Below, in pieces: positions 1 through 60,028 of a stretch of DNA of 60,215 nucleotides; position 1 is the stretch's first letter, and each line of letters starts with the position of its first letter. The notes beneath the pieces were generated by a model, which saw nothing but the letters and a program-made list of their open reading frames with translations, did not search any database and was not told where the DNA came from. The position numbers and the translations under genes are program-made. The stretch is from a candidate division WOR-3 bacterium. GTDB taxonomy: Bacteria > Hydrothermota > Hydrothermia > Hydrothermales > JAJRUZ01. The stretch covers positions 1 to 60,215 of the forward strand of contig JBDRZL010000012.1 in assembly GCA_039803925.1 (NCBI GenBank). The letters are read 5' to 3'.

Positions 1-296
1 AGGTATTTTAATCCTTCATAGTTCATTATCTCATCACGGACATTATCTCCATAAGATATTCTTTCAGGTCTTACCGTTATTTTTATCTTACTCTTTCCCA
101 TTCCCTCTCCTGTCCCGCCAAAAATTTTGCATTCTTCCTCTCTTAATTTTTTTATATCCTCTTCTGCCCTAATTGCCCGCCACCACCATCGCATCATGCC
201 CTTGAATTCTGAAGGTCTAAGTTCTGGAGTTCTCCCATCACCCCCTGCCATAAACATCGGAGTTATAACCCTACATTTTAAAATTAACTTATACAT
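1..296 (-). CDS. cmr1: Cmr1-like CRISPR RAMP protein, 5' part only (cut by window edge)
   Basis: The N-terminal 98 residues of a repeat-associated mysterious protein (RAMP, Cas7-like) are visible. They start MYKLILKCRVITPMF and carry the Cmr1 signature ELRPSEFKGMMRWWWRA at about residues 25-41. Cmr1 is a subunit of the type III-B (Cmr) RNA-guided effector complex, located near the 3' end of the crRNA. The ATG overlaps the last 8 bases of the upstream cas3'' gene, so the two are probably translated together. The rest of the gene lies beyond base 1. Family assignment is good from the motif; whether a full Cmr complex follows cannot be seen. Confidence 0.8.
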   Translation of the reverse strand, partial: MYKLILKCRVITPMFMAGGDGRTPELRPSEFKGMMRWWWRAIRAEEDIKKLREEECKIFGGTGEGMGKSKIKITVRPERISYGDNVRDEIMNYEGLKY

Positions 297-1014
297 TTAT
301 GCCTCCCAAAAACAGTTTCTTATTCTCCACATATTCTTCTATCTTCTCCACCATCAACCAGCCTCCGTAAAAATCATTTCCCTCCTTTTCCTGATACTCC
401 TTTCTTTCAGAGGCAGCTGAAATATCGCAAAGTTTAAGTAGATGATGAGCTAATGCTACCTGCATCCTTCTTTGATGCTGTTCCAATAAGCCACAACCCC
501 TTGACCATTTCCTTAAGCCCCTTGCCATCTCTTTTAAGTCATTAATGATAAGATTCTTTGCCTCATCTGGAAATAAATTATTATCTAACTTAGAGGTCTC
601 TTCATGCCAGATTATATTTCCTTCGTAATCAACTATATCCTCCAATATAGCCTGCACATCGGGTCTTTCAATATTGTCTCCAAGAAGCCCACTATCTGTA
701 TGATGAATGGCTACTGCAAAGCTAAGAGGTTCCCTTATATTTACAGGGAGAATTTTATAAAGGAGGGCTGCACCAATAGGTGCATGGGAAGGCAATTTTT
801 TATTAGTCCCTAAGTTTTCCTGCCATTTGTAGGTGAGTTTTCCGAGGTCATGAAAGAAAATCATTTTCATAAAGGCTTCTTCTAAATGGTTATGCGGAAT
901 AACTCTTGAAATTGTAGTTTTAAACAGAGGATAAACAAGGCGAAATCTTTCCTCACACCTTTGAATATGCTCTATATAGTTTTCCCCTGGAGCACTAAAT
1001 AAAATACCCGGCAT
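289..1014 (-). CDS. cas3'': CRISPR-associated HD nuclease Cas3''
   Basis: A stand-alone HD-family nuclease of about 241 residues. The sequence shows the ordered HD ligands: His in YIEHI, the His-Asp pair in FHDLGK, His in HAPIGA and the double His in AIHHTD. In type I CRISPR systems this domain degrades target DNA together with the Cas3' helicase; here the two are separate genes, as is usual in subtype I-A. I chose the ATG giving MPGILFSAPGE because homologous HD domains begin close to this point; it overlaps the end of cas3' by 20 bases. An upstream TTG at 1056 would add 14 residues unlike the family. The gene sits in one operon with cas3' and the cmr1-like gene. Confidence 0.85.
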   Translation of the reverse strand: MPGILFSAPGENYIEHIQRCEERFRLVYPLFKTTISRVIPHNHLEEAFMKMIFFHDLGKLTYKWQENLGTNKKLPSHAPIGAALLYKILPVNIREPLSFAVAIHHTDSGLLGDNIERPDVQAILEDIVDYEGNIIWHEETSKLDNNLFPDEAKNLIINDLKEMARGLRKWSRGCGLLEQHQRRMQVALAHHLLKLCDISAASERKEYQEKEGNDFYGGWLMVEKIEEYVENKKLFLGGINV

Positions 1015-2644
1015 CAGGCACCACCCCTTTAAGCTCATCATAATAATCACTTTCAAGGAGATAATAACTGAAAGGTGATATATCTTTTTTCTTATCTTTT
1101 TTCTTATCTTTTACCTCTTGAATCTCTAAACCCTTTTCTTGGTCAAAATTAATCTTATATTTTAAAACTCCATCCTTTAATAGTCTCCATCCAACTCTAA
1201 AGTCTACACTTATGGAATTATCCCTAATGTTTGTTTTATTAATTGCATCCTTAATCCTTTCTTCTTTTTTTCGCCCTTCACCTATTGAAAGGTTAACAAC
1301 TACAAGGGTAATGGGTTTTCCCTCTCTAACCTGTATATTTGAAGGTTTAGAATCAGCATATAGAACACACTCATACAAGTCAATCAGGGTATCCCTTGCC
1401 TCATAATCATTTGCCTTGTAATCAAGGGTAGCATCAACAAAGGAGCAAACCTCGTTAAAGTTTTTGATATTGAAATTGCTATTATTTTGTAACCACTCGC
1501 TGGTCTTTTCTAAATGCTCTTTTTTGTATGGTAAATGCCCATTATCATCTTCAACATGGAAGATAATCATCTCTCCCTTTTCTCCTTCATATCTTGCGCA
1601 TCTTCCAGCCCTCTGCACAAGTGAATCTGCTGGAGCTAATTCTGTAAGCAAAAGCTCTGCCGAAAAATCTATGCCTGCTTCAAGCACCTGAGTTGAGACT
1701 ACTATGCCAGTTCCTTCTGGTTTTATAATTTTTCCGTCTTCTCTATGGGGCATAAGAGAAAGTGCCCTTGTTTCGTGTTTTTCTCTATCTTTTCTTGTAA
1801 ACTGCGAATGAAGCAAGACTATCTCATTCTCCTCTAAATCAAGTCTCTTTTTAATTTCTTCATAAACCTTTTGAGCTCTACTTACCTGATTTAAAATTAT
1901 CAGTGTCTTTTTGGATTTTATTTTTTGTAAGAGTTCATCTGAAAAATTCACTTCATTGCCTCTGACAAGAGGCTCTTCGCATAGGGTTATCTTTAGAGTT
2001 GAGTTTAAATCTATCTTCCCGATAATCTTCCTGCCTTCATCTATGTCAATATTTTCAAAAAGGCTATCCTCTAAGCTTTTAGGCATAGTAGCAGTCATAA
2101 CTATGAAGGGAATATTACTTTTATGGAGTATCTCCATCAGGGCTCGCATTATGGCAAAGGTAAACTCATCTCTATACATATGAGCTTCATCAAATACCAC
2201 CAGAGATGAGGCAATGGCACCAGCAGGCACATCAATATGTCTGCCTACCTGATGGCTTGACCTTGCAAAACCATAAAGAAACTGGTCAAGGGTTGTTACA
2301 ACTATGTCTGCTATGAAAAAAGGTGAGTTGGGGAGGTCTCCATGCTGAACTTCAACTGTGATGTGGGGCGAAATTCTTTCTGCATACTTTTTGATCCTCT
2401 GAGCAATACTATTTACAAGCACCCTCATGGGTAAGACATAAATCAGCCTTGGAGCGATGAAAAAGTTTTTATCAATAAATTGAGATAAAAATGGAGCAAG
2501 AACTGCTTCTGTTTTACCTGAACCAGTGGAAGCCCTGATTAAGAGTGGAAATTCATTTTTATTGATTTTCTCCCATAATTCTTTTTGAAAATAACGGCAT
2601 TTAAAATTAAAAAAATTAATATAAAAATTATTTACTTCTTCCAT
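995..2644 (-). CDS. cas3': CRISPR-associated helicase Cas3'
   Basis: A 549-residue superfamily 2 DNA helicase without an HD domain. Motif I is STGSGKTEA near residue 40, the Walker B box is VVFDEAHMY, motif III is VMTATMP, and motif VI is QRAGRCAR near residue 345, preceded by STQVLEAGID, which is typical of Cas3. It unwinds target DNA recruited by a Cascade-like complex. It is the first gene of the operon, with a good promoter just upstream. Residues near the C-terminus contain a Lys-rich stretch (DKKKDKKKD). No Shine-Dalgarno site is obvious before the ATG. The nuclease partner follows immediately as a separate gene. Confidence 0.9.
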   Translation of the reverse strand: MEEVNNFYINFFNFKCRYFQKELWEKINKNEFPLLIRASTGSGKTEAVLAPFLSQFIDKNFFIAPRLIYVLPMRVLVNSIAQRIKKYAERISPHITVEVQHGDLPNSPFFIADIVVTTLDQFLYGFARSSHQVGRHIDVPAGAIASSLVVFDEAHMYRDEFTFAIMRALMEILHKSNIPFIVMTATMPKSLEDSLFENIDIDEGRKIIGKIDLNSTLKITLCEEPLVRGNEVNFSDELLQKIKSKKTLIILNQVSRAQKVYEEIKKRLDLEENEIVLLHSQFTRKDREKHETRALSLMPHREDGKIIKPEGTGIVVSTQVLEAGIDFSAELLLTELAPADSLVQRAGRCARYEGEKGEMIIFHVEDDNGHLPYKKEHLEKTSEWLQNNSNFNIKNFNEVCSFVDATLDYKANDYEARDTLIDLYECVLYADSKPSNIQVREGKPITLVVVNLSIGEGRKKEERIKDAINKTNIRDNSISVDFRVGWRLLKDGVLKYKINFDQEKGLEIQEVKDKKKDKKKDISPFSYYLLESDYYDELKGVVPDAGYFI

Positions 2645-2667
2645 TAGTATCTTTATTCTATATTTTT

Positions 2668-2697
2668 ATTATAAGTAATTAATAACTAATGAGTCAA
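2668..2697 (-). promoter_or_regulatory. Sigma70-like promoter of the cas3' operon
   Basis: On the minus strand TTGACT (2692-2697) is separated by 18 bases from TATAAT (2668-2673), which lies 23 bases before the cas3' ATG. Both boxes are near consensus. It is the only visible promoter for the CRISPR genes in this window. Confidence 0.65.
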
Positions 2698-2760
2698 TAT
2701 TTTATAAGTGATTTAAAAATTTATGTTTTCAAAACCTTTATAATACTTTATAATAAAATT

Positions 2761-3201
2761 ATGAAGTTTTTATATCAGAGACTTATGATAAAAACAAGTA
2801 TATTCTACTTTCTTGCAGGAACATTGATTGGTTTTTTTATGTTCCTTGGTTACAATTTTGAAAATTTTTCCTTCTTTTTTAAACTTAGAGAAGTCCACGC
2901 ACATCTACTTTTTCTTGGATTTGTTATTCAGATGATAATGGGAGTTGGCTTATGGATGTTTCCAAGAAAAACACCACAGGAACCAGAAGAGAGAGTCAAA
3001 TTATACAGAAAGGAAGAAAAACAGGGGCTTTCTCTCTACTTTCTTTTCAATTCTGGAACAGTATTGAGAAGTATTTTTGAAGGATTCATTCAATATAAAA
3101 ATTTTTATTACCTTGCTCTTTCAGGCGTAATACTCCTCGTTTTATCCATATTTTACTTTTTTCTTTTAATTTTACCAAGAATAAGAAAACCCGGTAAATA
3201 A
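2761..3201 (+). CDS. Small haem-copper oxidase subunit I-like membrane protein
   Basis: A 146-residue protein with about four hydrophobic segments. The second segment begins with REVHAHLLFLGFV and ends in MFPR, resembling the HxH haem-ligand helix of cbb3-type oxidase subunit I and NnrS-like haem proteins. It is far too short to be an oxidase; related short proteins are annotated only as uncharacterised subunit I-like. It may bind haem and sense or handle a redox ligand. I chose the ATG at 2761, 6 bases after a TATAAT box (2749-2754), over an upstream ATG at 2689 that would add 24 unlike residues. It is followed 40 bases later by a Cys-tailed MarR regulator, which suggests a shared redox role. 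Confidence 0.6.
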   Translation: MKFLYQRLMIKTSIFYFLAGTLIGFFMFLGYNFENFSFFFKLREVHAHLLFLGFVIQMIMGVGLWMFPRKTPQEPEERVKLYRKEEKQGLSLYFLFNSGTVLRSIFEGFIQYKNFYYLALSGVILLVLSIFYFFLLILPRIRKPGK

Positions 3202-3241
3202 TTTATCTTATAATTAGAAATCCTAAAAATGAGGTGAAAAT

Positions 3242-3841
3242 ATGACAAATTTAAATGAGCTTGATACAAAAATCATATATATATTTGAAAAGATAACGAA
3301 CCTATCAAAGGTTTTATTCTGGAATATATCAAAGGAAACAGGTATATCACCTCTTGGAATTCAGGTAATATTATTTCTTGCTGAAAATCCAGCAGAAAGA
3401 GCCTTACCATCTTTTATATCCGAGGAACTGGGAGTAACAAGAGCTACACTTTCTGAAGCTCTAAAAACATTAATTAAAAAGGAATTAATAAAAGAGGAGA
3501 AAAGTAAAAAGGATAAGAGATACAAATTTTTAAAACTTACAGAAAGGGGAGAAAAAGTTTTAAATAAAATTCTCTCAGGTTACAGAGGCGAAATATCAAA
3601 GGGATTAAAAGCATTAAAATTAAGGGATAAAAGAGAACTTTATACTCTTTTACTAAAAATAATTTCAGAATTTCAAGATAAAAACGTTATAAGAATTTCA
3701 AGGATGTGCATTAACTGCGCAAATTTTGTAAAAAATGCCTTTCCTGACCCTGTTAAAAAACATTTATGTAAACTTACAGGCAAAAAACTTTCTGATTATG
3801 ATATAAAAGTTAAGTGTGATTACAGTAAACCTATTTTTTAG
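3242..3841 (+). CDS. MarR-family regulator with a four-cysteine C-terminal tail
   Basis: A 199-residue winged-helix regulator. The wHTH core spans roughly residues 30-110, with a recognition helix near [13 protein letters not shown] and a wing ending in [12 protein letters not shown]. After the dimerisation helices, residues 150-199 hold cysteines at 156, 159, 176 and 192 (C-x2-C-x16-C-x15-C), a spacing that could bind Zn or an Fe-S cluster or form disulphides. A clear GAGGTGAAA ribosome site precedes the ATG. The 3' end overlaps the convergent msrAB gene by 11 bases. Location between a haem-like protein and a methionine sulphoxide reductase makes redox or oxygen sensing a reasonable inference, but the target genes are not shown. 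Confidence 0.75.
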
Positions 3842-4841
3842 TCTTTTCAAAAATTTTTTTATATTCACCGTAGCCTTCTTTTTCTAAATCTTCAAGGGGA
3901 ATAAACCTTAAAGATGCTGAATTTATGCAGTATCTTAATCCAGTTGGTGCAGGACCATCATCAAATAAGTGTCCAAGATGGGAATCCCCGTGTTTGGACC
4001 TTACTTCAACCCTGACCATATTATGGGATGTATCAATTTTATAAATTAAATTATCCTCCTCAAGAGGTTTTGTAAAGGAAGGCCATCCACATCCAGAATC
4101 AAATTGATCAAGACTTGAAAACAAAACTTCGCCTGAAACAATATCAACATAAATACCAGGTCTATCATTTTTATAATATTCATTTTCAAAGGGTTTTTCA
4201 GTATAGTTTTCCTGTGTTACCTTATACTGAAGTTCTGTTAATTTTTTCTTTAATTCTTCCTTTGAGGGTTTTTTGTATCTCGGGTCTTTTTTGTATTTCA
4301 AGTTTTTTAACTTTTCTCTCCAAACATTCCATATAAATTTCTCTCTACCTGAAAAGTATTTGTAAAAACAGTATCTAATCGGTTCTTTCTTATAAAAATC
4401 CTGATGATAATCCTCTGCCTTATAAAATTTTTCAAATTTTTTTATTTCAGTAACAATTGGATTTTCAAAAATACCGGATTTTTCAAGTAATTCCTTTGAT
4501 TTTTCAGCAAGGAATTTCTGTTCCTCATCATGATAAAAAATTGCTGTTTTATACTGCTCTCCTCTATCTGCAAACTGCCCTTCAGGATCAGTGGGGTCTA
4601 TATGAGACCAGAAAACTTCTAATAAATCCTGATATGAAATTTTCTCTGGATCATAGATAACCTGAACCGCTTCATAATGACCTGTTTTACCAGATGAAAC
4701 CTCTTCATAGGTGGGATTTTCCTTTTGACCACCTGTATAACCTGAAATAACATCAATAACACCTTCAATTTTATGGAAGGCTTCTTCCATACACCAGAAA
4801 CATCCACCTGCAAAGGTGGCTAATTTAAATTTTTTTTCCAC
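3831..4841 (-). CDS. msrAB: Bifunctional methionine sulphoxide reductase MsrA-MsrB
   Basis: A fusion repairing both epimers of methionine sulphoxide. The MsrA half starts with [11 protein letters not shown] and GYTGG; the MsrB half carries DSGCGWPSF and the catalytic [11 protein letters not shown]. The usual first zinc Cys pair of MsrB is replaced by DIVSGEVLF, as in zinc-free forms. I chose a GTG start because a strong AGGAGG lies 7 bases upstream and because the promoter below would start the message at about 4919. The longer reading frame from 4955 would add a hydrophobic leader ([12 protein letters not shown]) but begins inside the promoter. The protein is therefore probably cytoplasmic, about 336 residues. 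Confidence 0.88.
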
Positions 4842-4926
4842 AGAATCTCCTCCTTTTATACTTTCTTTATCTTTTAAAAAAATTAACAAAATCAGAAAAT
4901 AAAAAAATTCCATTTTTATATTTAAT

Positions 4927-4955
4927 ATAATATTCTTTCGAAGAATTTTTTTCAA
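4927..4955 (-). promoter_or_regulatory. Promoter of msrAB
   Basis: Minus strand TTGAAA (4950-4955), 17-base spacer, TATTAT (4927-4932). Predicted start of transcription is near 4919, leaving about 78 bases of leader before the GTG start. This excludes the ATG at 4955 as the start codon. Confidence 0.6.
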
Positions 4956-4974
4956 CTTTGAAACTTATAAAAAT

Positions 4975-5003
4975 TTGTATTTTAAAGGTTAAAAGTTTAT
5001 AAT
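4975..5003 (+). promoter_or_regulatory. Promoter of tRNA-Pro
   Basis: TTGTAT (4975-4980), 17-base spacer, TATAAT (4998-5003), predicted transcription start about 13 bases before the mature tRNA. It is back-to-back with the msrAB promoter. Confidence 0.6.
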
Positions 5004-8367: not shown

Positions 8368-8769
8368 ATGAAAAAAAATGATTTACCTAAATCCCTAATA
8401 AGATATCTGAGGTGTATATATGTACTGAGTCAGAAAAGAAAGGTTGTGAGGGTTAAGGAAATAGCTTTAAGAATTAATGTTACCACCTCTGCTGCTACCC
8501 AGGCTATAAAGGAATTAGCTAAAAGAGGACTTATTTTACACGAACACTATGGATTTGTAGAATTAACAGAAAAGGGAGAGAAAATCGCTCGGGAGTTTTA
8601 TGAAAAGGCTCAATTCTTTATAAATTTCTTTACTCAATTTCTAAATATACCCGAAGAAATTGCAGAAGAAGATGCATGTAAAATGATAAATATCTTTAAC
8701 ATTATAACTCTCGAAAAATTTAAAAACTTTATTGAAAAAATAAAAAAACAGAAGGTTCTTTCAAAATAG
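8368..8769 (+). CDS. DtxR/MntR-type metal-dependent repressor
   Basis: A 133-residue regulator. The N-terminal winged helix has VVRVKEIALRINVTTSAAT followed by QAIKELAKRGLI and wing HYGFVELTEKGEKIA. The second part contains EEDACKMINIF, matching the metal-site and dimerisation helix of DtxR family proteins (E-D-A-C). The SH3-like third domain is absent, as in MntR. Such proteins repress metal transport or storage genes when Fe or Mn is bound. It lies 69 bases behind the Fe-S oxidoreductase with its own promoter. The local candidate operators suggest it controls itself and perhaps that gene. Confidence 0.78.
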   Translation: MKKNDLPKSLIRYLRCIYVLSQKRKVVRVKEIALRINVTTSAATQAIKELAKRGLILHEHYGFVELTEKGEKIAREFYEKAQFFINFFTQFLNIPEEIAEEDACKMINIFNIITLEKFKNFIEKIKKQKVLSK

Positions 8770-8803
8770 TAGAAATTTAAATTTTTATTTTATACTTAAA
8801 CAA

Positions 8804-9373
8804 ATGAAGCAAAAGAGGACAATTAAACTTATTGGAATAGCAGGAAGTTTAAGAGAGAAATCTTTCAACAGAAGAATATTAAGGGAAATTAAAAAAAAAT
8901 GTCCCAGTGATATAAAATTTGAAATTATTGAAATAGGAAATATACCTCTTTTTAATCAAGATATTGAAGAAAGTGGAACACCTGAAAGTGTTATCAAATT
9001 AAAGAAAAAAATAAAAAATTGTGATGGGGTAATATTCATAACACCAGAATATAATCATTCAGTTCCTGGTGTTTTGAAAAATGTTATAGACTGGATTTCA
9101 AGAGGAGAAAATCCACTTAAAGGTAAACTATGTGCAATAGGCGGAGTAACAACCGGAAATTTTGGAACAGCAAGAGCACAGAAACATCTTATTGATATCC
9201 TTTTTTCTCTTAAAGCTTTTATATACCCTGAAACCCTGATGATATCTAATGCTGATGAAAAATTTGACAAAAATCTTAAATTAAAAGATAAAAAAACAGA
9301 AGAAAAAATAAAAAAATTTTTTAATAATTTTTTAGATTTTATCAGAAAATTTTCTTATCATTATGAACTATGA
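8804..9373 (+). CDS. NADPH-dependent FMN reductase family flavoprotein
   Basis: A 189-residue flavodoxin-like protein. The FMN phosphate loop is GSLREKSFNRRIL near residues 13-25, and TPEYNHSVPGVLKNVIDW near residues 80-97 is the family signature. These enzymes reduce FMN, quinones or azo compounds with NAD(P)H. No ribosome site is visible; TATACT lies 7 bases before the ATG, so the message may be leaderless. Its stop overlaps the ATG of the next gene (ATGA), so translation of the aminotransferase is probably coupled. The physiological substrate is unknown. Confidence 0.82.
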   Translation: MKQKRTIKLIGIAGSLREKSFNRRILREIKKKCPSDIKFEIIEIGNIPLFNQDIEESGTPESVIKLKKKIKNCDGVIFITPEYNHSVPGVLKNVIDWISRGENPLKGKLCAIGGVTTGNFGTARAQKHLIDILFSLKAFIYPETLMISNADEKFDKNLKLKDKKTEEKIKKFFNNFLDFIRKFSYHYEL

Positions 9374-10479
9374 AAAAAATAAAATTACAAGACCTTTATA
9401 CACCTTATACTGAGATAAAGGAAGAACTTTTTCCACTCCTCGAAAAGATTTTTTCTGAAATGAATTTATACCTGGGACCATACCAAGAGGAGTTTGAAAA
9501 GAAATTTGCTGAGTATTGTGGAACAAAATATTTTGTTTCTTTATCTTCTGGAACAGATGCATTACATCTTGCCTTAAGGGGAATAGGTGTAGAAAAGGAT
9601 GATGAGGTAATTTTACCTTCCTTTACCTTTTTTGCAACTCTTGAAGCTGTTTGGATGGTTGGAGCAAAACCTATCTTTGCTGAAATAAAAGAAGATGATT
9701 TTACAATTGATCCTGAAGATGTAAGGAAAAAAATAACTAAAAAAACAAAAGCAATAATTTTAGTACATATCTTTGGAACTCCCTGTGATATGGATGAATT
9801 CTGGAAAATCAAAGAAAATTACCCAGATATTATTTTAATTGAAGATGCAGCACAAGCCCATGGAGCTATCTATAGAGATAAAAAAGTCGGTAATTTAGGT
9901 GATGTTTCTGCATTCAGTTTTTACTATACAAAAAATCTTGGTGCCCTTGGAGAAGCTGGGGGAGTTTCTACAAATAACAAAAAAATTTATGAAAAAATAA
10001 AACTTTTAAGAAATCACGGGCAGAATAAAAGTTACTTCAGTGAAATTATGGGTTTCAATTTTAGAATGGATGAAATTCAAGCTGCTATATTACTTTTAAA
10101 ACTCAAACATCTTGATAAATGGAATTCAAGGAGAAGAGAAATAGCAAAAATTTATCACGAAAACCTTAAAAGTTTAAAGGAAATAAAACTTATAAAAGAA
10201 AATAAAGAAAAAAATTCAGTTTATCATCTATTCGTCATAAGAACAAAAGAAAGAGATAAATTAAAAGAGTATCTAAAAAGTGAAGGTATTGAAACAGGTA
10301 TTCATTATCCAGTCCCCTGTCACTTACAGCCTGCTGCTAAATTTTATGGTTTTAAAGAAGGTGATTTAAAAATAACTGAAAAAATATCTAAAGAAGTCCT
10401 CTCACTCCCCTGTCACCCACATTTAAAAGATGAGGAAGTGAATTTTATTTGTGAAAAAATTAAAGAATTTTATTTATAA
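9370..10479 (+). CDS. DegT/DnrJ/EryC1/StrS-family PLP aminotransferase
   Basis: A 369-residue fold-type I PLP enzyme of the sugar aminotransferase family. It shows the substrate loop SSGTDALHLALRG, the PLP-binding IEDAAQAHGA and the Schiff-base lysine in YYTKNLGALGEAGG, plus the family C-terminal IHYPVPCHLQP. Members transfer an amino group to keto-sugar nucleotides for envelope glycan or natural-product synthesis. Full family length. It overlaps the flavin reductase by 4 bases. No other sugar-nucleotide genes are adjacent, so the precise sugar cannot be stated. Confidence 0.88.
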   Translation: MKKIKLQDLYTPYTEIKEELFPLLEKIFSEMNLYLGPYQEEFEKKFAEYCGTKYFVSLSSGTDALHLALRGIGVEKDDEVILPSFTFFATLEAVWMVGAKPIFAEIKEDDFTIDPEDVRKKITKKTKAIILVHIFGTPCDMDEFWKIKENYPDIILIEDAAQAHGAIYRDKKVGNLGDVSAFSFYYTKNLGALGEAGGVSTNNKKIYEKIKLLRNHGQNKSYFSEIMGFNFRMDEIQAAILLLKLKHLDKWNSRRREIAKIYHENLKSLKEIKLIKENKEKNSVYHLFVIRTKERDKLKEYLKSEGIETGIHYPVPCHLQPAAKFYGFKEGDLKITEKISKEVLSLPCHPHLKDEEVNFICEKIKEFYL

Positions 10480-15278: not shown

Positions 15279-15664
15279 ATTAATTTATTTAAAAGTTTTC
15301 TTTCTTTTTTTTCCATTTTTATTCTTTCATGGTTATTTTTATGATCATATCCCATTATATGATAAAAACTATGAATTATTAATTTAAGAAAATCCCTTTT
15401 ATTTTTTACAAAATCTGAGCATATATAGATCTCACCAATTTCTCCAAGGTTAAAGGAAATGCAATCTGTTTTTTTATTTTTTCCTAAAAAATTTTTATTA
15501 ATTCTTTTTATTCTTTCTCTTCCAACCATCACTATGTTAATTTCTTTAACCTCGGAATTTTCTTTTTTTATTTCCCTTTTTAAAATTTTTTCTAAATTTA
15601 ATTTATCCTTTTTCTTAAGAGGTATCTTCTTTTTTGTTGTTTTAAAAAAATTAAGATTAAACAA
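15275..15664 (-). CDS. ybeY: Endoribonuclease YbeY (rRNA maturation factor)
   Basis: A 129-residue single-domain metalloprotein for 16S rRNA 3' end processing and ribosome quality control. The zinc triad H-x3-H-x5-H is intact in IHSFYHIMGYDH near the C-terminus. DCISF before it matches the family's TDVLSF strand. It overlaps pgpH upstream and the DUF21 gene downstream, giving the classical phoH-pgpH-ybeY-CorC order. Confidence 0.9.
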   Translation of the reverse strand: MFNLNFFKTTKKKIPLKKKDKLNLEKILKREIKKENSEVKEINIVMVGRERIKRINKNFLGKNKKTDCISFNLGEIGEIYICSDFVKNKRDFLKLIIHSFYHIMGYDHKNNHERIKMEKKERKLLNKLI

Positions 15665-17690
15665 TTTTTTCTTTTGCTTTGAGAGGTGGATAAGTCACCC
15701 TAACATGAAATCTGTGAATAAGTTTCGGTAAAATAGCTTCCTTTATTTTTTCCATATCCTTCCGTGTAATTTCACATTCATCAAACTGACCATCAGAAAA
15801 CCTATGATTTATAACATCATCAATAGCATCCCTAATACTTTGAAATTCATATTTTTCAAGACTTCTTACCTTTGCCTCAATTCCATCTAAAAGCATTATT
15901 ATTGCTTCCTCTTTCTTTTCTGGTTTTGGACACTTGTACCTGTATTCTTCTTCCCTTACATCACTATTTATTTTTTTTGCCTTTTCATAGAAGGAAAACA
16001 TGAGAAGAGTTCCATGATGTCTTTCTATTATTCTTATTATACTTTCCGGCAACCTATATTTCTTAGCTAACTCTACCCCCTTTTTAACATGATTTTGCAG
16101 TATAGTCACACTTACAGTTGGTGATATTTTGTTATGTGGATTTTCTTGAGGATCTTTAAGATTTTCAACAAAAAATTTAGGATTTTCAATTTTACCGATA
16201 TCGTGGTATAAAGCACCGACTTTCGCAAGGAGAGGATTTGCCCCTATTTTTTCTGCTGCAATTCTTGCCAGTTCTGACATCTGTATTGAATGTTCAAAAG
16301 TTCCAGGTGTTTTACTTTCCAGTTCTTTTAAAAGGGGGTGTTCAGGATTTGAAAGTTCAAGAAGGACAAAATCGGTAGCAATTCCTAAAAATTTTTCATG
16401 AAGGGGAAGTAATGTAATTGTTCCGATAATTGATAAACTTGATGAAAAAAGAGAACTTATAAAGATCTCACCATTTGTTATCTGGAAACTGGCATAGATT
16501 TTGAAAAAGAATGAAAGAATTATTGATAGAAAAAGGAGTATAAAGAATCCAAAGATCAAATCTAATCTATTTCTTAAAAATTTTGAAATGAGAATACCTG
16601 AAATTCCTATGGTAAGAAAATATATTAAAAAAAATAAACTAAAACCCGAATAAACTGCACATAGAATTGAGAGTATGATCGTTAAAAATAAAGCAAATTT
16701 TCTTCCTGTTACAAAATAGAAAAAAAATGGTATAAAAGCAAAAGGTATATAAAGGGAACTTTTTGTTATTTTTATTATTAAACTTGATAAAAACATGAAC
16801 AAAAGTGAATTGAAAATTATAAGTAAAAGCATTTTTGTATCACCGTAAATTTCAGGGAAAAGAAATCTTACAGAATAATAGGAAAAAAGCAGAATTATGA
16901 GAAAGAATATGTACCTTAAGGAAAGTATAAAAATCTTTGATATAAAGGATTTTCTTTTTGCAATTTCCATTGCCTCAAGTTTTTCTATTTCTATTTTTGA
17001 AAGTGGTTCACCCTTTTTGGCAATAACTTCGCCCTTATATACAACTCCCTTGAATTCTTCAATTCTTTCAAGTAATTTCTGCTTTCTAATTTTAGTTTCC
17101 TCAAAATCAATTTTGTAATTCGGAACTATAAAAGGAGAAATTAATTCCTCAAATAAAAAGGAAAGTTGCTCTTTAAAGGGAAAAACTTTTATTGCTCTTT
17201 CTTTTATGATTTCTTTTATTTCTGATAAAGAATATATCTTGTTTACTGGAAAAAATTTATCTCCTTCTGGGGTAAGAAGAATTACAAACTCACTATTTAA
17301 TTTCCTTATTGTATCAATATCTTCAAGAATAACATAATCTTTTATTTCTTCATAGGTTTTATTTATTTCCTCTATAAATTTTTTTCTTGTTTTTATATCC
17401 AGATTCTCAAGCTGACTTTCTATAAGATTCTGGTCAAGACTTGGTCTTAAAACAGGAGAAAGTACAAGGGTAAGTCTTTTTAAAATTTCTTCCCTTTCCT
17501 TTCTTATTTCTTCTTTTGATTTAGGAATTTTAAAAGTAAAGGTAGCTATTATATCCCTCTGTGGGACTTCACCTATTCTTAAGGTATAAATCTTTTCCTC
17601 TGAAAAAGGTAAAAAGTATGTTATCAAAACTGAAAATATAAATATGGAAAAAATTTTAAGAAGTCTTTCCTTCCTTCTTATTTCCCTCAT
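15657..17690 (-). CDS. pgpH: PgpH-like membrane HD phosphohydrolase (c-di-AMP phosphodiesterase family)
   Basis: A 677-residue 7TM-HDED/7TM-HD protein. An N-terminal membrane helix (FSIFIFSVLITYFLPF) is followed by an extracytoplasmic region to about residue 255, then about seven helices to residue 445, then a cytosolic HD domain: FEHSIQMSELA, ALYHDIGKIENP, NPHNKISP and IIERHHGT. PgpH homologues hydrolyse c-di-AMP to pApA; c-di-AMP itself is not proven here. I use the ATG at 17690 rather than the TTG at 17705; both overlap phoH. Operon with phoH and ybeY. Confidence 0.87.
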   Translation of the reverse strand: MREIRRKERLLKIFSIFIFSVLITYFLPFSEEKIYTLRIGEVPQRDIIATFTFKIPKSKEEIRKEREEILKRLTLVLSPVLRPSLDQNLIESQLENLDIKTRKKFIEEINKTYEEIKDYVILEDIDTIRKLNSEFVILLTPEGDKFFPVNKIYSLSEIKEIIKERAIKVFPFKEQLSFLFEELISPFIVPNYKIDFEETKIRKQKLLERIEEFKGVVYKGEVIAKKGEPLSKIEIEKLEAMEIAKRKSFISKIFILSLRYIFFLIILLFSYYSVRFLFPEIYGDTKMLLLIIFNSLLFMFLSSLIIKITKSSLYIPFAFIPFFFYFVTGRKFALFLTIILSILCAVYSGFSLFFLIYFLTIGISGILISKFLRNRLDLIFGFFILLFLSIILSFFFKIYASFQITNGEIFISSLFSSSLSIIGTITLLPLHEKFLGIATDFVLLELSNPEHPLLKELESKTPGTFEHSIQMSELARIAAEKIGANPLLAKVGALYHDIGKIENPKFFVENLKDPQENPHNKISPTVSVTILQNHVKKGVELAKKYRLPESIIRIIERHHGTLLMFSFYEKAKKINSDVREEEYRYKCPKPEKKEEAIIMLLDGIEAKVRSLEKYEFQSIRDAIDDVINHRFSDGQFDECEITRKDMEKIKEAILPKLIHRFHVRVTYPPLKAKEKIV

Positions 17691-18612
17691 ACTTTTCAAA
17701 GGCAATTATAATGGATTTAACAATAGGATGCCTTATGATATCCTCTGAGCCAAAATAAATAAATTTTATGCCTTCTACTCCTTTTAAAATTTTTTCTGCG
17801 ATTACAAGTCCCGATTCCTCCTTATCTTTCAAATCTATCTGTGTTATGTCACCTGTTACAGCAACTTTTGTTTTTAAACCCATTCTCGTTAAAAACATTT
17901 TCATCTGAAGGTAATTTGTATTCTGAGCTTCATCTAAAATAACAAAAGCATTTGAAAGAGTTCTTCCCCTCATGTAAGCAAGAGGAGCAATTTCTATTAC
18001 TCCTGTATTCATTAGTTTTTTTATTCTGTCATAAGGCATCATATCAAATAAAGCATCGTAAAGGGGTCTTAAATAAGGATCAACCTTTTCCTGGAAACTA
18101 CCAGGTAAGAAACCAAGTGATTCTCCAGCTTCTACTGCGGGTCTTGTAAGAATAATTCTCTCTACTTTTTCTTCCCTCAAATGCTCAAGAGCACAGGCAA
18201 CTGCAAGGTATGTCTTACCTGTTCCGGCTGGTCCTATTGAAAAAACAAGAGGATATTTTCTTAAAGCATCAACATAATGTTTCTGATTCTCTGTTTTGGG
18301 AGTAACTATTTTTTTAGGCGTTATAATAGAATCCTTGTATTTTTCAACATTTTTTAAATAATTATCCTTATTCAAAATATCAATAATCTGATCAGGTTCA
18401 AAAAAATTTCCTTCTTCAGCCCTTTCATCAAGTTTGGATAAAATCTCCTTCAATTTTTTGAATTCTTTTTTATCACCTTCAAATTTAATTTCTTCACCTC
18501 TCACTGTTATTTTACCTGAAAAATATTCCTGTAATACCTTGAGGTTTTGATTTAAAACCCCAAGTATTTCTCTTAATTTTTTAGGTCTTACACTAAAGGT
18601 TTTTATTTCCAC
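17656..18612 (-). CDS. phoH: PhoH-like ATPase
   Basis: A 318-residue RNA-linked P-loop ATPase. An N-terminal KH-like region precedes the PhoH core, with Walker A GPAGTGKTYLAVA near residue 131, Walker B FVILDEAQN and sensor VTGDITQIDL. Role in RNA metabolism and ribosome maturation is inferred from its constant link with YbeY. The start is GTG with AAGG close upstream. The gene follows a GC-rich terminator that isolates it from the LysM gene, so a promoter must lie around 18612-18633, but I see no clear one. Confidence 0.9.
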   Translation of the reverse strand: MEIKTFSVRPKKLREILGVLNQNLKVLQEYFSGKITVRGEEIKFEGDKKEFKKLKEILSKLDERAEEGNFFEPDQIIDILNKDNYLKNVEKYKDSIITPKKIVTPKTENQKHYVDALRKYPLVFSIGPAGTGKTYLAVACALEHLREEKVERIILTRPAVEAGESLGFLPGSFQEKVDPYLRPLYDALFDMMPYDRIKKLMNTGVIEIAPLAYMRGRTLSNAFVILDEAQNTNYLQMKMFLTRMGLKTKVAVTGDITQIDLKDKEESGLVIAEKILKGVEGIKFIYFGSEDIIRHPIVKSIIIAFEKYEGNKKEGKTS

Positions 18613-56358: not shown

Positions 56359-58101
56359 TTATAATATTACTCTATAACATTTTACATTTTCTTTTATCCC
56401 TTTAATTTTCATATATCCTATTTCTTCTATTTTTATTATTGATGGGAGTTTATTTTTTGTACTTTCATCAATTATAATTTCATTGTCAAGAGCTAATTCT
56501 TCAAATCTGGAGGCGAGATTTACGGCTTTACCTATTGCAGTGTAGTCTAATCTTGTCTTTGAGCCTATATTACCTACAACTACATCTCCAGTTGAAATTC
56601 CTATTTTTACTCTAATACCAAAACCAAACTCTTTTTCAAATTCCTCATTTTTCATTAATATATTTTTTATCAAATCAATTGCTGACTTAACCGCTTCTTC
56701 AGCAGCATTAATTGAAACATAAGGAACTCCAAATAAAGCCATTACACAATCTCCTATAAACTTATCAATTACACCATTATATTTAAATATTGACTCTGTT
56801 GCAATATTAAAATATTTATTTAAGTAAGAAACAAGTTTTTCTGGTGAAAATTTTTCACTTAAAGAAGTGAAATTACTTATATCTGCAAACATTATACTAA
56901 TTTCTCTTTTTATTGTTTCAGCTGAAAGAGTGCTTTTACCCTGAGCTATTAATTGATTTGCTAAATGAGTTGGTAAATATCTCATAGCAAATAATTTAAT
57001 CTCTGTTTCTTTAATAATTTCTTCTTTATAATGCTTGAGAGTTTTAATCATTTCGTTAAAAGAATTAGCAAGCTCTCCAATCTCATTTTTTGCCCTTACA
57101 TTAACTTGATATCCAAAATCTCTGGAAATTATTCTTTTGATGCCTAAATTTAGCTCTTCTATAGGTTTTGTTAAATATCTTGAAGATAAAATTCCAAATA
57201 TTATACTAAGAAAAAGAAATATAAAACCTGTTAAAGATGAAAATGTATATAATCTTCTTAAGCTTGCATAAACTATTTCATGGGGCTGAGAAACTACTAT
57301 TCCCCACTCAAGAGAAGGTAAGGTTGTAAAAGTTCCAAGTAGTTTTCTATTTTTATAATCAATATAATTTTGAGAAAAAGCTATATCAAATTTTAAAATT
57401 TCTTTGGAATTCTCAAAATTTTTAAAAAAACCAATTTCCTTTAATTTTTTTTTCTCTTTTACAAATTTAATTTCTGGATGCGCAATAACATTTCCATTTT
57501 TATCCAAAATAAAAATAAGGTCATAAATATTAAATCTCCGAAAAGAAAGTTCTTTCAAATAAGAAGAAAGATAGGAAAGAGAAAATCCAGCAGATAAATA
57601 TCCAATTAACCTATTATCAGACGTTTTCCACTTTTTAATTGCTTCAAGAACTGGGAAGGAATCTTTTTCTGAATAATATAGACTATAAAAAGTTGAATCT
57701 GAACGAATTATTTTTATTTTATCGGTTATGTCTTTTAAAATACCGTATTTAGGAGAAGAAAATTGATCAATAAGTCTACCGTTTACATCATAAATACCAA
57801 TATAATTAATGTTGGGTTCAAAAGAAAGATAAATCTTAACATATTCAATTTTTTTTTCAATATTTAAAGCATTATCATTAAATATATCAATCACATAATT
57901 TAAAGCTTCTTCAATTATTTCAGTTTTTTGAAATAAATCTTTTTTTATCTCATCTGAAATAGCAACTGCATACTCTTTTGCTGAAAGAGTCAGGGAATCT
58001 GTATTTATCTTTGCAAGAATCAAAGTCAAAAAGAAAGTGGTAAAAAAAACTATAAGAGAAAAAGTAAAGGCAATTTCATTTCTAATTTTTCTCTTTATCA
58101 T
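56359..58101 (-). CDS. Membrane adenylate/guanylate cyclase with Cache and HAMP domains
   Basis: A 580-residue receptor cyclase. TM1 (FTFSLIVFFTTFFLTLIL) is followed by an extracytoplasmic Cache-like sensor (residues 35-280), TM2 (LTGFIFLFLSIIFGIL), HAMP (YLTKPIEELNLGIKRI) and a class III cyclase. Metal-binding Asp are in IMFADISNFTSL and FIGDCVMALFG; the transition-state residues in AIGKAVNLASR are conserved. It makes cAMP or cGMP; the substrate is not certain. It directly follows the OmpA-FecR protein (7 bases), implying a sensing pair. Confidence 0.9.
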   Translation of the reverse strand: MIKRKIRNEIAFTFSLIVFFTTFFLTLILAKINTDSLTLSAKEYAVAISDEIKKDLFQKTEIIEEALNYVIDIFNDNALNIEKKIEYVKIYLSFEPNINYIGIYDVNGRLIDQFSSPKYGILKDITDKIKIIRSDSTFYSLYYSEKDSFPVLEAIKKWKTSDNRLIGYLSAGFSLSYLSSYLKELSFRRFNIYDLIFILDKNGNVIAHPEIKFVKEKKKLKEIGFFKNFENSKEILKFDIAFSQNYIDYKNRKLLGTFTTLPSLEWGIVVSQPHEIVYASLRRLYTFSSLTGFIFLFLSIIFGILSSRYLTKPIEELNLGIKRIISRDFGYQVNVRAKNEIGELANSFNEMIKTLKHYKEEIIKETEIKLFAMRYLPTHLANQLIAQGKSTLSAETIKREISIMFADISNFTSLSEKFSPEKLVSYLNKYFNIATESIFKYNGVIDKFIGDCVMALFGVPYVSINAAEEAVKSAIDLIKNILMKNEEFEKEFGFGIRVKIGISTGDVVVGNIGSKTRLDYTAIGKAVNLASRFEELALDNEIIIDESTKNKLPSIIKIEEIGYMKIKGIKENVKCYRVIL

Positions 58102-58108
58102 TTAAAAA

Positions 58109-60028
58109 TTACATTCTAATTTCAAGGGCAATACCCAGAATACTATACAGATGCTTTTTATTTCTCATAAAAAAATATTTATCTGAAGAATTGCTGAAAT
58201 ATATACTTTTTGTATATAAAGTCAAAAAAGAATTTTTAGATATCTGTAAATTAAAACCAAACTCAAATTCCGCGGAAGGATCAAAAAACTTCGTCCATCT
58301 TTCACCAGCTTGTGCAATAGTATTTTCATTCAAGATATTTTTCCACCATGTTCCACCAATCCCAATCTTAAAAAAAGGAACAAAATTAGAGGAACCAAAA
58401 TCTAATCTTAAACCGCAACTCCCTGTAATAACTTTGGTTACAAAAATTGAATCATAATCTGCACTGCCAGCAATATATTTTTTCTTTTCAATTGAACCAA
58501 GACCAATATCAAAATAAAAACCTCTAAAGTAGGAATATTTTTTTTCAAATCCTATTTTGGCATATATGGAGTTTGCTTTTAACAATGGCAAAAGGAAAAA
58601 TCCCATTCCAAAATTGATTATTTTAAATTGCCTTATGTAAGGATTTATAAATCTGTATTCTTTACTTTCATTACCTACTTGGTCAATTATCTTTACATTA
58701 ATTAATCTTGTCTCTGGAGAAATAGAAAAAACAAAAAAACTGTCTTCTTTTGCTAATATTTTATTTCCATTTATAATAACTAAACTTAAGGGCTTAGTTT
58801 TTCCAATTAGAAAAATATTTCCATAATTATCCTGCTCAATTTTATAGTTCAATTTTGGTTTTACTGTATCCTTTACTACACTAAATTTAAAAACCTTTGA
58901 AAATTTTCCTTCAAAATTATCCTCATCAATTCCACTTAATCTCCAATAATATTCACCTTCAGCAAGTTTGAGCTTTATTGAATCTAAACTCAAAATAGTA
59001 TCTAAAACCAAATCTCTAAACAGGGTATCTTTGGCACATTGAAAATGAGCTAAAGTAGAAGTTTTTTTCCATCTAAATAAAACTCTCAAATCATAAAGTA
59101 TTTCATTATCTTGCGGACCTAAAAGTTCTGGTATTTGAGGTAAAGGTCTGGGCGGCTCAGGCGGCTTACCCATTTCAACTTTCGTTCCCTCTCCTTCATT
59201 CACTCTTACCTTTTGACCCATTGCTGATACATCTGCATTCCCTTCATAAATAGCAATTAAACTTCTTAAACTCTTATCAACAAGAATTTTGCTATTTTTA
59301 GATCTCAGTTCAACAAGAGCCGCCGGTGTATTTACAACAAAATTTTCATCTTTGCTTAGCTTACTTAAAAGCGGTCTCAATGCTCCGCTCTGTAATTCAA
59401 CTCTGTTAAAAGGACTTTTTTCCCTTTCCTCTTTTAAAAGACCATATATTATTAAGAGTGCATCTTCATCTAAATTTATTCTTCCTTTCCCAGGAAACAA
59501 TATTTCAGCATTAGAATTCCTTTTTGTATTTACTTTATAAAGTTTATATAAAAAAGCTTCAGGGAAAGCCTTTATCCATTCTGGTCTTAAAAATACAGGT
59601 TGAATCAATACCTCATTTTTAAAATAACTCAAAATTGCATCAGGTGAATGAATTGAAATTTCAACCCGACGGTTCTTTCTTCTTCCTTCTTCCGTATCGT
59701 TTGGAGCAATTGGATTTTGGGACCCTAAACCGTAAGTATAAATACGATCAGGATGAATACCAAAATTTTTTACTAAATATTTTTTTACACTTGAAGCACG
59801 TTTTTGAGAAAGAGCAATATTTATTTTCTCTGAACCAAGATTATCGGTATAACCAGTTATGTCAATTATTATATTAGGATCACTTATTAACTTCTGTGCC
59901 ACATTTTTTATAACCTCTTCACCCTCTTTTGTTAGATTAGTATCACCTTTTTCAAAATATATTCTTCCAAGTATTTCACCACTAACTAATGAATTGATAG
60001 AAATTATTAAAGAGAAAATCATCCTCAT
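58109..60028 (-). CDS. OmpA-FecR fusion with FnIII-like and beta-barrel-like C-terminal regions
   Basis: A 639-residue secreted protein. A signal peptide (MIFSLIISINSLVSG) is followed by an OmpA domain, residues 20-130 (TGYTDNLGSEKINIALSQKR, GLGSQNPIAPND, EGRRKNRRVEI) binding peptidoglycan. Residues 165-290 are FecR-like (VNTPAALVELRSKNSKILVD, VRVNEGEGTKVEMGKPPEPP), then an FnIII-like part (residues 300-385), a beta sandwich (390-455) and C-terminal beta-strands ending ALEIRM, probably an outer-membrane barrel. OmpA normally sits at the C-terminus, so the order is odd. It is followed by the receptor cyclase in one operon. Confidence 0.75.
   Translation of the reverse strand: MRMIFSLIISINSLVSGEILGRIYFEKGDTNLTKEGEEVIKNVAQKLISDPNIIIDITGYTDNLGSEKINIALSQKRASSVKKYLVKNFGIHPDRIYTYGLGSQNPIAPNDTEEGRRKNRRVEISIHSPDAILSYFKNEVLIQPVFLRPEWIKAFPEAFLYKLYKVNTKRNSNAEILFPGKGRINLDEDALLIIYGLLKEEREKSPFNRVELQSGALRPLLSKLSKDENFVVNTPAALVELRSKNSKILVDKSLRSLIAIYEGNADVSAMGQKVRVNEGEGTKVEMGKPPEPPRPLPQIPELLGPQDNEILYDLRVLFRWKKTSTLAHFQCAKDTLFRDLVLDTILSLDSIKLKLAEGEYYWRLSGIDEDNFEGKFSKVFKFSVVKDTVKPKLNYKIEQDNYGNIFLIGKTKPLSLVIINGNKILAKEDSFFVFSISPETRLINVKIIDQVGNESKEYRFINPYIRQFKIINFGMGFFLLPLLKANSIYAKIGFEKKYSYFRGFYFDIGLGSIEKKKYIAGSADYDSIFVTKVITGSCGLRLDFGSSNFVPFFKIGIGGTWWKNILNENTIAQAGERWTKFFDPSAEFEFGFNLQISKNSFLTLYTKSIYFSNSSDKYFFMRNKKHLYSILGIALEIRM

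Follow-up and report, generated by a model that had tools for sequence, protein, structure and literature searches.

A gene pair in a candidate division WOR-3 bacterium, encoding an OmpA-FecR envelope protein and a dCache-HAMP receptor cyclase, belongs to a family of pairs in which the enzyme half of the receptor has been exchanged at least once while the partner protein and the Cache-HAMP part have stayed together. We propose, with a probability of about 0.6, that the pair is a two-protein trans-envelope signaling module in which the OmpA-FecR protein modulates the receptor through its Cache domain. This proposal builds on the domains, the intact active site, the gene pairing, the co-inheritance of the partner with Cache-HAMP, and the exchange of output, all of which were obtained by computation. 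The pair lies in a stretch of 60,215 nucleotides that was analyzed as a whole (the window), with the following features:

58109..60028, minus strand: envelope protein of 639 aa with the order OmpA-FecR-Ig-Ig-(barrel), encoded by the upstream gene (ORF call, Pfam, structure model)
59648..59974, minus strand: OmpA domain of the peptidoglycan-binding type, residues 19-127, with the putative peptidoglycan-binding pair D62/R77
59540..59647, minus strand: linker block of 36 residues, 128-163 (alignment)
59237..59536, minus strand: FecR domain (PF04773), residues 165-264 (Pfam)
58664..59137, minus strand: two Ig/FnIII-like beta sandwiches, residues 298-455 (AlphaFold strands)
58112..58663, minus strand: strand-rich C-terminal region, probable small outer-membrane beta-barrel, residues 456-639 (model, relatives)
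56359..58101, minus strand: dCache-HAMP class III cyclase of 580 aa, predicted adenylate cyclase, encoded by the downstream gene (ORF call, Pfam)
57247..57996, minus strand: periplasmic dCache sensor domain between two transmembrane helices, residues 36-285 (dCache_1, E 3.5e-14)
57031..57183, minus strand: HAMP domain, residues 307-357 (Pfam, E 1.3e-9)
56362..56931, minus strand: catalytic domain of the class III type, residues 391-580 (Guanylate_cyc, E 7e-30); GGDEF instead in f22 relatives

The open reading frames matched exactly the arrangement given in the initial annotation for positions 56359-60028, namely a 639-residue protein followed 7 bases later by the cyclase. Only 187 bases separate the start of the OmpA-FecR gene from the contig end, and the neighbors are visible on one side only; besides the cyclase, that side holds genes for an M19 peptidase and for a protein of the PGA_cap family. 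Scans for promoters and terminators returned nothing better than chance. The FecIRA-type layout, in which the gene for an inner-membrane FecR anti-sigma protein lies beside those for an ECF sigma factor and a TonB-dependent transducer, was not found in the window, which could be scanned on one side of the pair; among the relatives, the constant neighbor of the OmpA-FecR gene is instead the Cache-HAMP gene.

Elsewhere in the window, we observed Cas3-like helicase C-terminal and DEAD domains close to the contig start (995-2644), with no CRISPR-type repeat array in bases 1-5000; a COX1-like protein of 170 aa (2689-3201) with a partial family match under the cut-off; and a 7TM-HD protein (15657-17705; 7TMR-HDED, 7TM, and HD) with the architecture of c-di-AMP phosphodiesterases.

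The N-terminal OmpA and FecR-like domains first read from the sequence were both recovered by Pfam. OmpA (PF00691) matched residues 24-120 over profile positions 1-98 (E 7.1e-24). The FecR match passed narrowly (27.2 bits against a curated cut-off of 24, E 5.3e-6; 31 bits in the genome search) and is the sole FecR domain detected in the window's genome, while the f22 relatives score under the cut-off. The N terminus is signal-peptide-like and lacks a lipobox Cys. In classical OmpA proteins the barrel comes first, and the window protein has the reverse order. Its OmpA domain model resembles the OmpA-like domains of Acinetobacter baumannii, OprF, and YfiB (Foldseek, E 4e-9 to 1e-6). An Asp/Arg pair in A. 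baumannii OmpA binds diaminopimelate; both residues are present in the window domain as D62 and R77, at a spacing of 15 residues that we take to be the same as in A. baumannii OmpA. The equivalents are kept in all f9 copies and in three f22 copies (L032, L033, and L042), Arg77 alone is replaced by Met in L034, L041, and L043, and both residues are lost in L035, L036, and L039. These last three, which belong to genus g47 of f22, nevertheless retain the linker/FecR block and a GGDEF partner. With these putative binding residues missing from several f22 copies, peptidoglycan binding cannot be a requirement in every lineage.

The FnIII-like part of the initial annotation was borne out in the predicted structure, where two beta-sandwich stretches span residues 298-460 with a pLDDT of mostly ~80 to 90, but not by Pfam, which returned no match for this part of the window protein. 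One relative (L033) showed weak Glucodextran_B/Big_6 matches across the Ig region, and two short f22 copies (L041 and L042) lack the Ig domains. Structure prediction of the full protein, which had been suggested as a check, was informative in part: the AlphaFold2 model, built from 13 sequences, gave a confident OmpA fold and confident sandwiches, but the FecR stretch 197-291 was not modeled reliably (block pLDDT ~27 to 40) and the C-terminal strands were of low confidence. When the f9 and f22 copies were compared, linker residues 128-163 were the most conserved of the mature domains, at 41% identity against 16 to 29% for the rest (29% for OmpA and FecR, 16 to 18% for Ig and barrel).

The identity of the second gene product as a Cache-HAMP class III cyclase was confirmed by its dCache_1, HAMP, and Guanylate_cyc matches and by a complete catalytic set. 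Transmembrane segments 9-34 and 284-311 flank the Cache domain, whose double-Cache layout is visible in the structure model; a double Cache between transmembrane helices, followed by HAMP, is the arrangement of a dCache-HAMP receptor. All six canonical class III residues are present (D407 and D451 for metal binding, K447 and T521 for the choice of adenine, and N528 and R532 for the transition state), and the nearest solved structure for the cyclase domain is Pseudomonas aeruginosa CyaB (E 4.1e-34). The K447/T521 Lys/Thr pair is of the type found in class IIIb adenylate cyclases, so the expected product is cAMP rather than cGMP. Thus, where the initial annotation had left both messengers in play, the catalytic residues favor cAMP and speak against cGMP. 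CRP-type receptors exist for cAMP, and the window's genome encodes six cNMP-binding proteins and three class III cyclases. CHASE2 was found neither in the window cyclase nor anywhere else in this genome.

We sought relatives of the pair in 147 genomes of the phylum (WOR-3/Stahlbacteria) and found 12 further OmpA-FecR copies in 11 other genomes. The conserved pairing on which the initial annotation had staked its case was observed: in 10 of the 12, a dCache-HAMP gene follows directly downstream on the same strand, with an overlap of 4 bases in three f9 genomes and spacings of 30 to 69 bases in the seven others. No gene intervenes in the window or in any of these ten pairs. Of the two copies without a neighboring receptor, L032 is truncated by its contig end and L043 is an orphan duplicate. 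The latter (8385-10022) is the second OmpA-FecR copy in genome G087; its frame begins within the OmpA domain, and its end is masked.

The match between partner and receptor also holds when each is searched on its own. A search with Cache-HAMP only returned the same ten neighbors as its ten best non-self matches (E ≤ 2.2e-39; next, 3.1e-15), and a linker-FecR profile set the 13 known copies (E ≤ 5.4e-61) clearly apart from the next match (7.6e-8). This one-to-one correspondence far exceeds chance adjacency. The genomes bearing the pair, including the window's, represent two classes, with three families and five genera among them, and therefore cannot be counted as independent observations. Trees of both halves recovered the same three groups (window, f9, and f22) and gave no hint of differing histories; built without an outgroup, they leave the direction of the output change unrooted. 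Both genes are absent from two genomes of the window's own genus (G029 and G030) and one of the same family (G028), which implies that the function is dispensable and that losses or transfers of the pair have occurred. When the OmpA-FecR protein by itself served as the query, a genome-wide scan gave no matches. A single peptide pattern derived from the alignment hit WOR-3 loci only (8 of the 11 known other genomes) and none outside the phylum, although distant relatives could escape such a pattern.

The pairing persists across a change of enzyme. In the three f9 genomes G045-G047, which share the window's class, the receptor carries a class III cyclase 48 to 51% identical to that of the window, whereas in seven f22 genomes it carries a GGDEF domain with an intact motif (E ~1e-46 to 1e-48) and the OmpA-FecR partner is retained. 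Contrary to what the initial annotation had implied, the partner is therefore not tied to class III cyclases, since 7 of the 10 paired relatives carry GGDEF. Between cyclase-type and GGDEF-type receptors, identity is ~25% in Cache and ~33 to 47% in HAMP. Because the partner was kept despite the change in output, it most likely acts on the common Cache-HAMP side. We put at about even odds the broader interpretation that one sensor subunit anchored in the outer membrane and peptidoglycan serves one Cache-HAMP chassis whose enzyme half has switched in evolution between making cAMP and making c-di-GMP, which would let a single envelope signal be reported by different messengers in different lineages.

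We also considered whether output type tracks the receptor repertoire of the cell. This was unsupported: the f9 genomes (G045-G048) have 0 to 1 cNMP-binding proteins and 13 to 26 GGDEF matches. PilZ was not matched in any of 16 WOR-3 genomes, though each has 5 to 26 GGDEF matches, which implies that the c-di-GMP effectors of the phylum are of other kinds or that PilZ is too diverged there to detect.

In the module that we favor, the OmpA-FecR protein would be exported, and its C-terminal barrel would probably anchor it in the outer membrane, while the OmpA domain grips peptidoglycan and the linker/FecR block is displayed in the periplasm. The linker/FecR block is the constant element of the partner and thus the candidate for Cache contact; it would most likely touch the inner-membrane receptor encoded by the next gene, at its dCache domain. 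Ligand binding or an altered state of the envelope may then shift this contact and, through HAMP, change cyclase activity. The output would be cAMP in the window's genome, while elsewhere the partner and Cache-HAMP receptor would drive a diguanylate cyclase. Outer-membrane insertion, peptidoglycan binding, physical contact, the sign of control, and the signal are the parts of this scheme that we infer. Modules that occur elsewhere as separate genes are joined in the window protein, which supports the idea that they work together. Counting against the proposal are the weakness of the barrel in the window copy, the lack of an adjoining receptor at L043, the loss of the putative peptidoglycan-binding residues in some f22 copies, the absence of the pair from G028-G030, and the 0 to 1 cNMP-binding proteins of the f9 genomes, which make the cAMP effectors there uncertain.

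The C-terminal region bears on whether the partner spans the outer membrane at all. AlphaFold2 placed long barrel-like strands at residues 503-516, 528-543, 548-562, 585-595, 600-612, and 625-638 (block pLDDT 32 to 76), and PF13505 (OMP_b-brl) matched four of six homologous C-termini (best E 2.2e-5), but neither the window's own C-terminus nor those of the f9 copies matched a barrel family. Strand alternation exceeded that of shuffled sequences in several copies, most in the short forms L041 and L042 (P = 0.002), compared with P = 0.08 in the window; a PDB search with a profile of the region found no relative. The barrel-like C-terminus first described is therefore likely an outer-membrane barrel, a prediction for which the relatives speak more clearly than the window copy. 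If these poorly modeled strands formed no barrel, the protein could be a soluble or loosely attached peptidoglycan-binding subunit in the periplasm that delivers a ligand to the Cache domain or represses it. The missing family matches and the window's alternation value would fit this option, but the PF13505 matches, the barrel-like short forms, and the Omp85 proteins encoded in the window's genome argue against it, and we regard it as quite unlikely.

It is also unlikely, if a little less so, that the OmpA-FecR protein is a structural or adhesin-like envelope protein that is co-expressed within the same envelope program and does not touch the receptor. The fast evolution of its Ig and barrel parts between groups and the orphan copy L043 would suit such a role, as would the indirect nature of the case for contact. 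Loose co-expression is, however, hard to square with one-to-one co-occurrence with a single Cache-HAMP subfamily or with a pairing that outlasts the change in the enzyme half, and the most conserved element is the periplasmic linker rather than a surface part. Finally, dCache domains usually bind small ligands, and the window's genome has further cyclases and cNMP receptors, so Cache might sense a small molecule alone, with the OmpA-FecR protein acting further down the same pathway, as its target or reporter. We consider this highly improbable, since a messenger target would not be expected to remain paired across a change from cAMP to c-di-GMP and since an exported protein is unable to bind cytoplasmic messengers.

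The window pair sits within a wider FecR-receptor theme in the phylum, in which both the sensor and the output vary. Judged by coordinates, CHASE2 receptors adjoin ten further FecR genes (L096, L098, L099, and L103-L109). Six of these receptors carry a class III cyclase, and four were taken as kinases, two by Pfam (G018 and G033), one by similarity to G033 (G034), and one only through a missing cyclase match (G017). The CHASE2-cyclase loci agree with the general statement that FecR proteins adjoin cyclases, as does a report on Campylobacterota (PMC9239204). The FecR protein of L096 additionally carries LysM and Ig domains, and in L098 and L103 a separate OmpA gene adjoins the FecR gene or lies close to it. 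Seventeen other FecR loci (DUF6600-FecR and similar) were set aside because their surroundings gave no match to a cyclase, GGDEF, or Cache domain.

FecR-domain proteins that accompany receptor cyclases or kinases are widespread, and their role is largely unexplained; here, a partner family stays with one sensor domain. The change of enzyme with the partner kept makes the periplasmic Cache domain and the conserved 36-residue linker the places to look for an interface, and the cyclase and GGDEF versions are natural chimeras for studying how the state of the outer membrane or cell wall is transferred to an inner-membrane enzyme.

Several characterized systems share elements of this design. In the Burkholderia "BiofilmReg" operon, a LysM-FecR protein is encoded 10 bp upstream of a CHASE2 histidine kinase (PMC5192318). 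As predicted for the window pair, and as in the layout of L096, a peptidoglycan-binding FecR protein is encoded directly before a receptor of the inner membrane whose sensor domain is periplasmic; the operon differs in having LysM rather than OmpA, no barrel, CHASE2 rather than dCache, and histidine kinase output. The Campylobacterota cluster, in which a FecR outer-membrane protein accompanies a CHASE2 adenylate cyclase, resembles both the window pair and the WOR-3 loci L103-L108 in that a FecR protein adjoins a receptor adenylate cyclase, but its sensor is CHASE2 rather than dCache-HAMP and it is reported to include additional phosphodiesterase and TPR genes (PMC9239204). The outer-membrane beta-barrel NsrA of Sinorhizobium meliloti is needed for signal perception by the receptor adenylate cyclases CyaK and CyaD (PMC7529298, PMC13001267); compared by description, it offers a functional precedent for an outer-membrane protein working with an inner-membrane receptor cyclase, although these cyclases carry CHASE2. 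In YfiBNR of P. aeruginosa, a diguanylate cyclase is activated in correlation with peptidoglycan binding by the OmpA protein (PMC4887326, PMC2837407). There, as proposed for the window pair, a peptidoglycan-binding outer-membrane protein with an OmpA domain, whose fold the window domain matches, controls an inner-membrane cyclic-messenger enzyme. YfiB, however, is described as a small lipoprotein acting via soluble YfiR, a periplasmic repressor whose gene accompanies those of the OmpA protein and the GGDEF enzyme, whereas the window pair has no intervening third gene, adds FecR, Ig, and barrel parts, and includes a receptor with a dCache domain. Within the partial coverage of the literature on these parallels, we found no description of OmpA fused to FecR, of a partner with dCache, or of a switch between cAMP and c-di-GMP. 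While the placement of FecR beside a receptor and the control of a GGDEF enzyme by an OmpA-type protein are already known, the fusion of OmpA to FecR, dCache in place of CHASE2, and the interchangeable cAMP/c-di-GMP output appear to be new.
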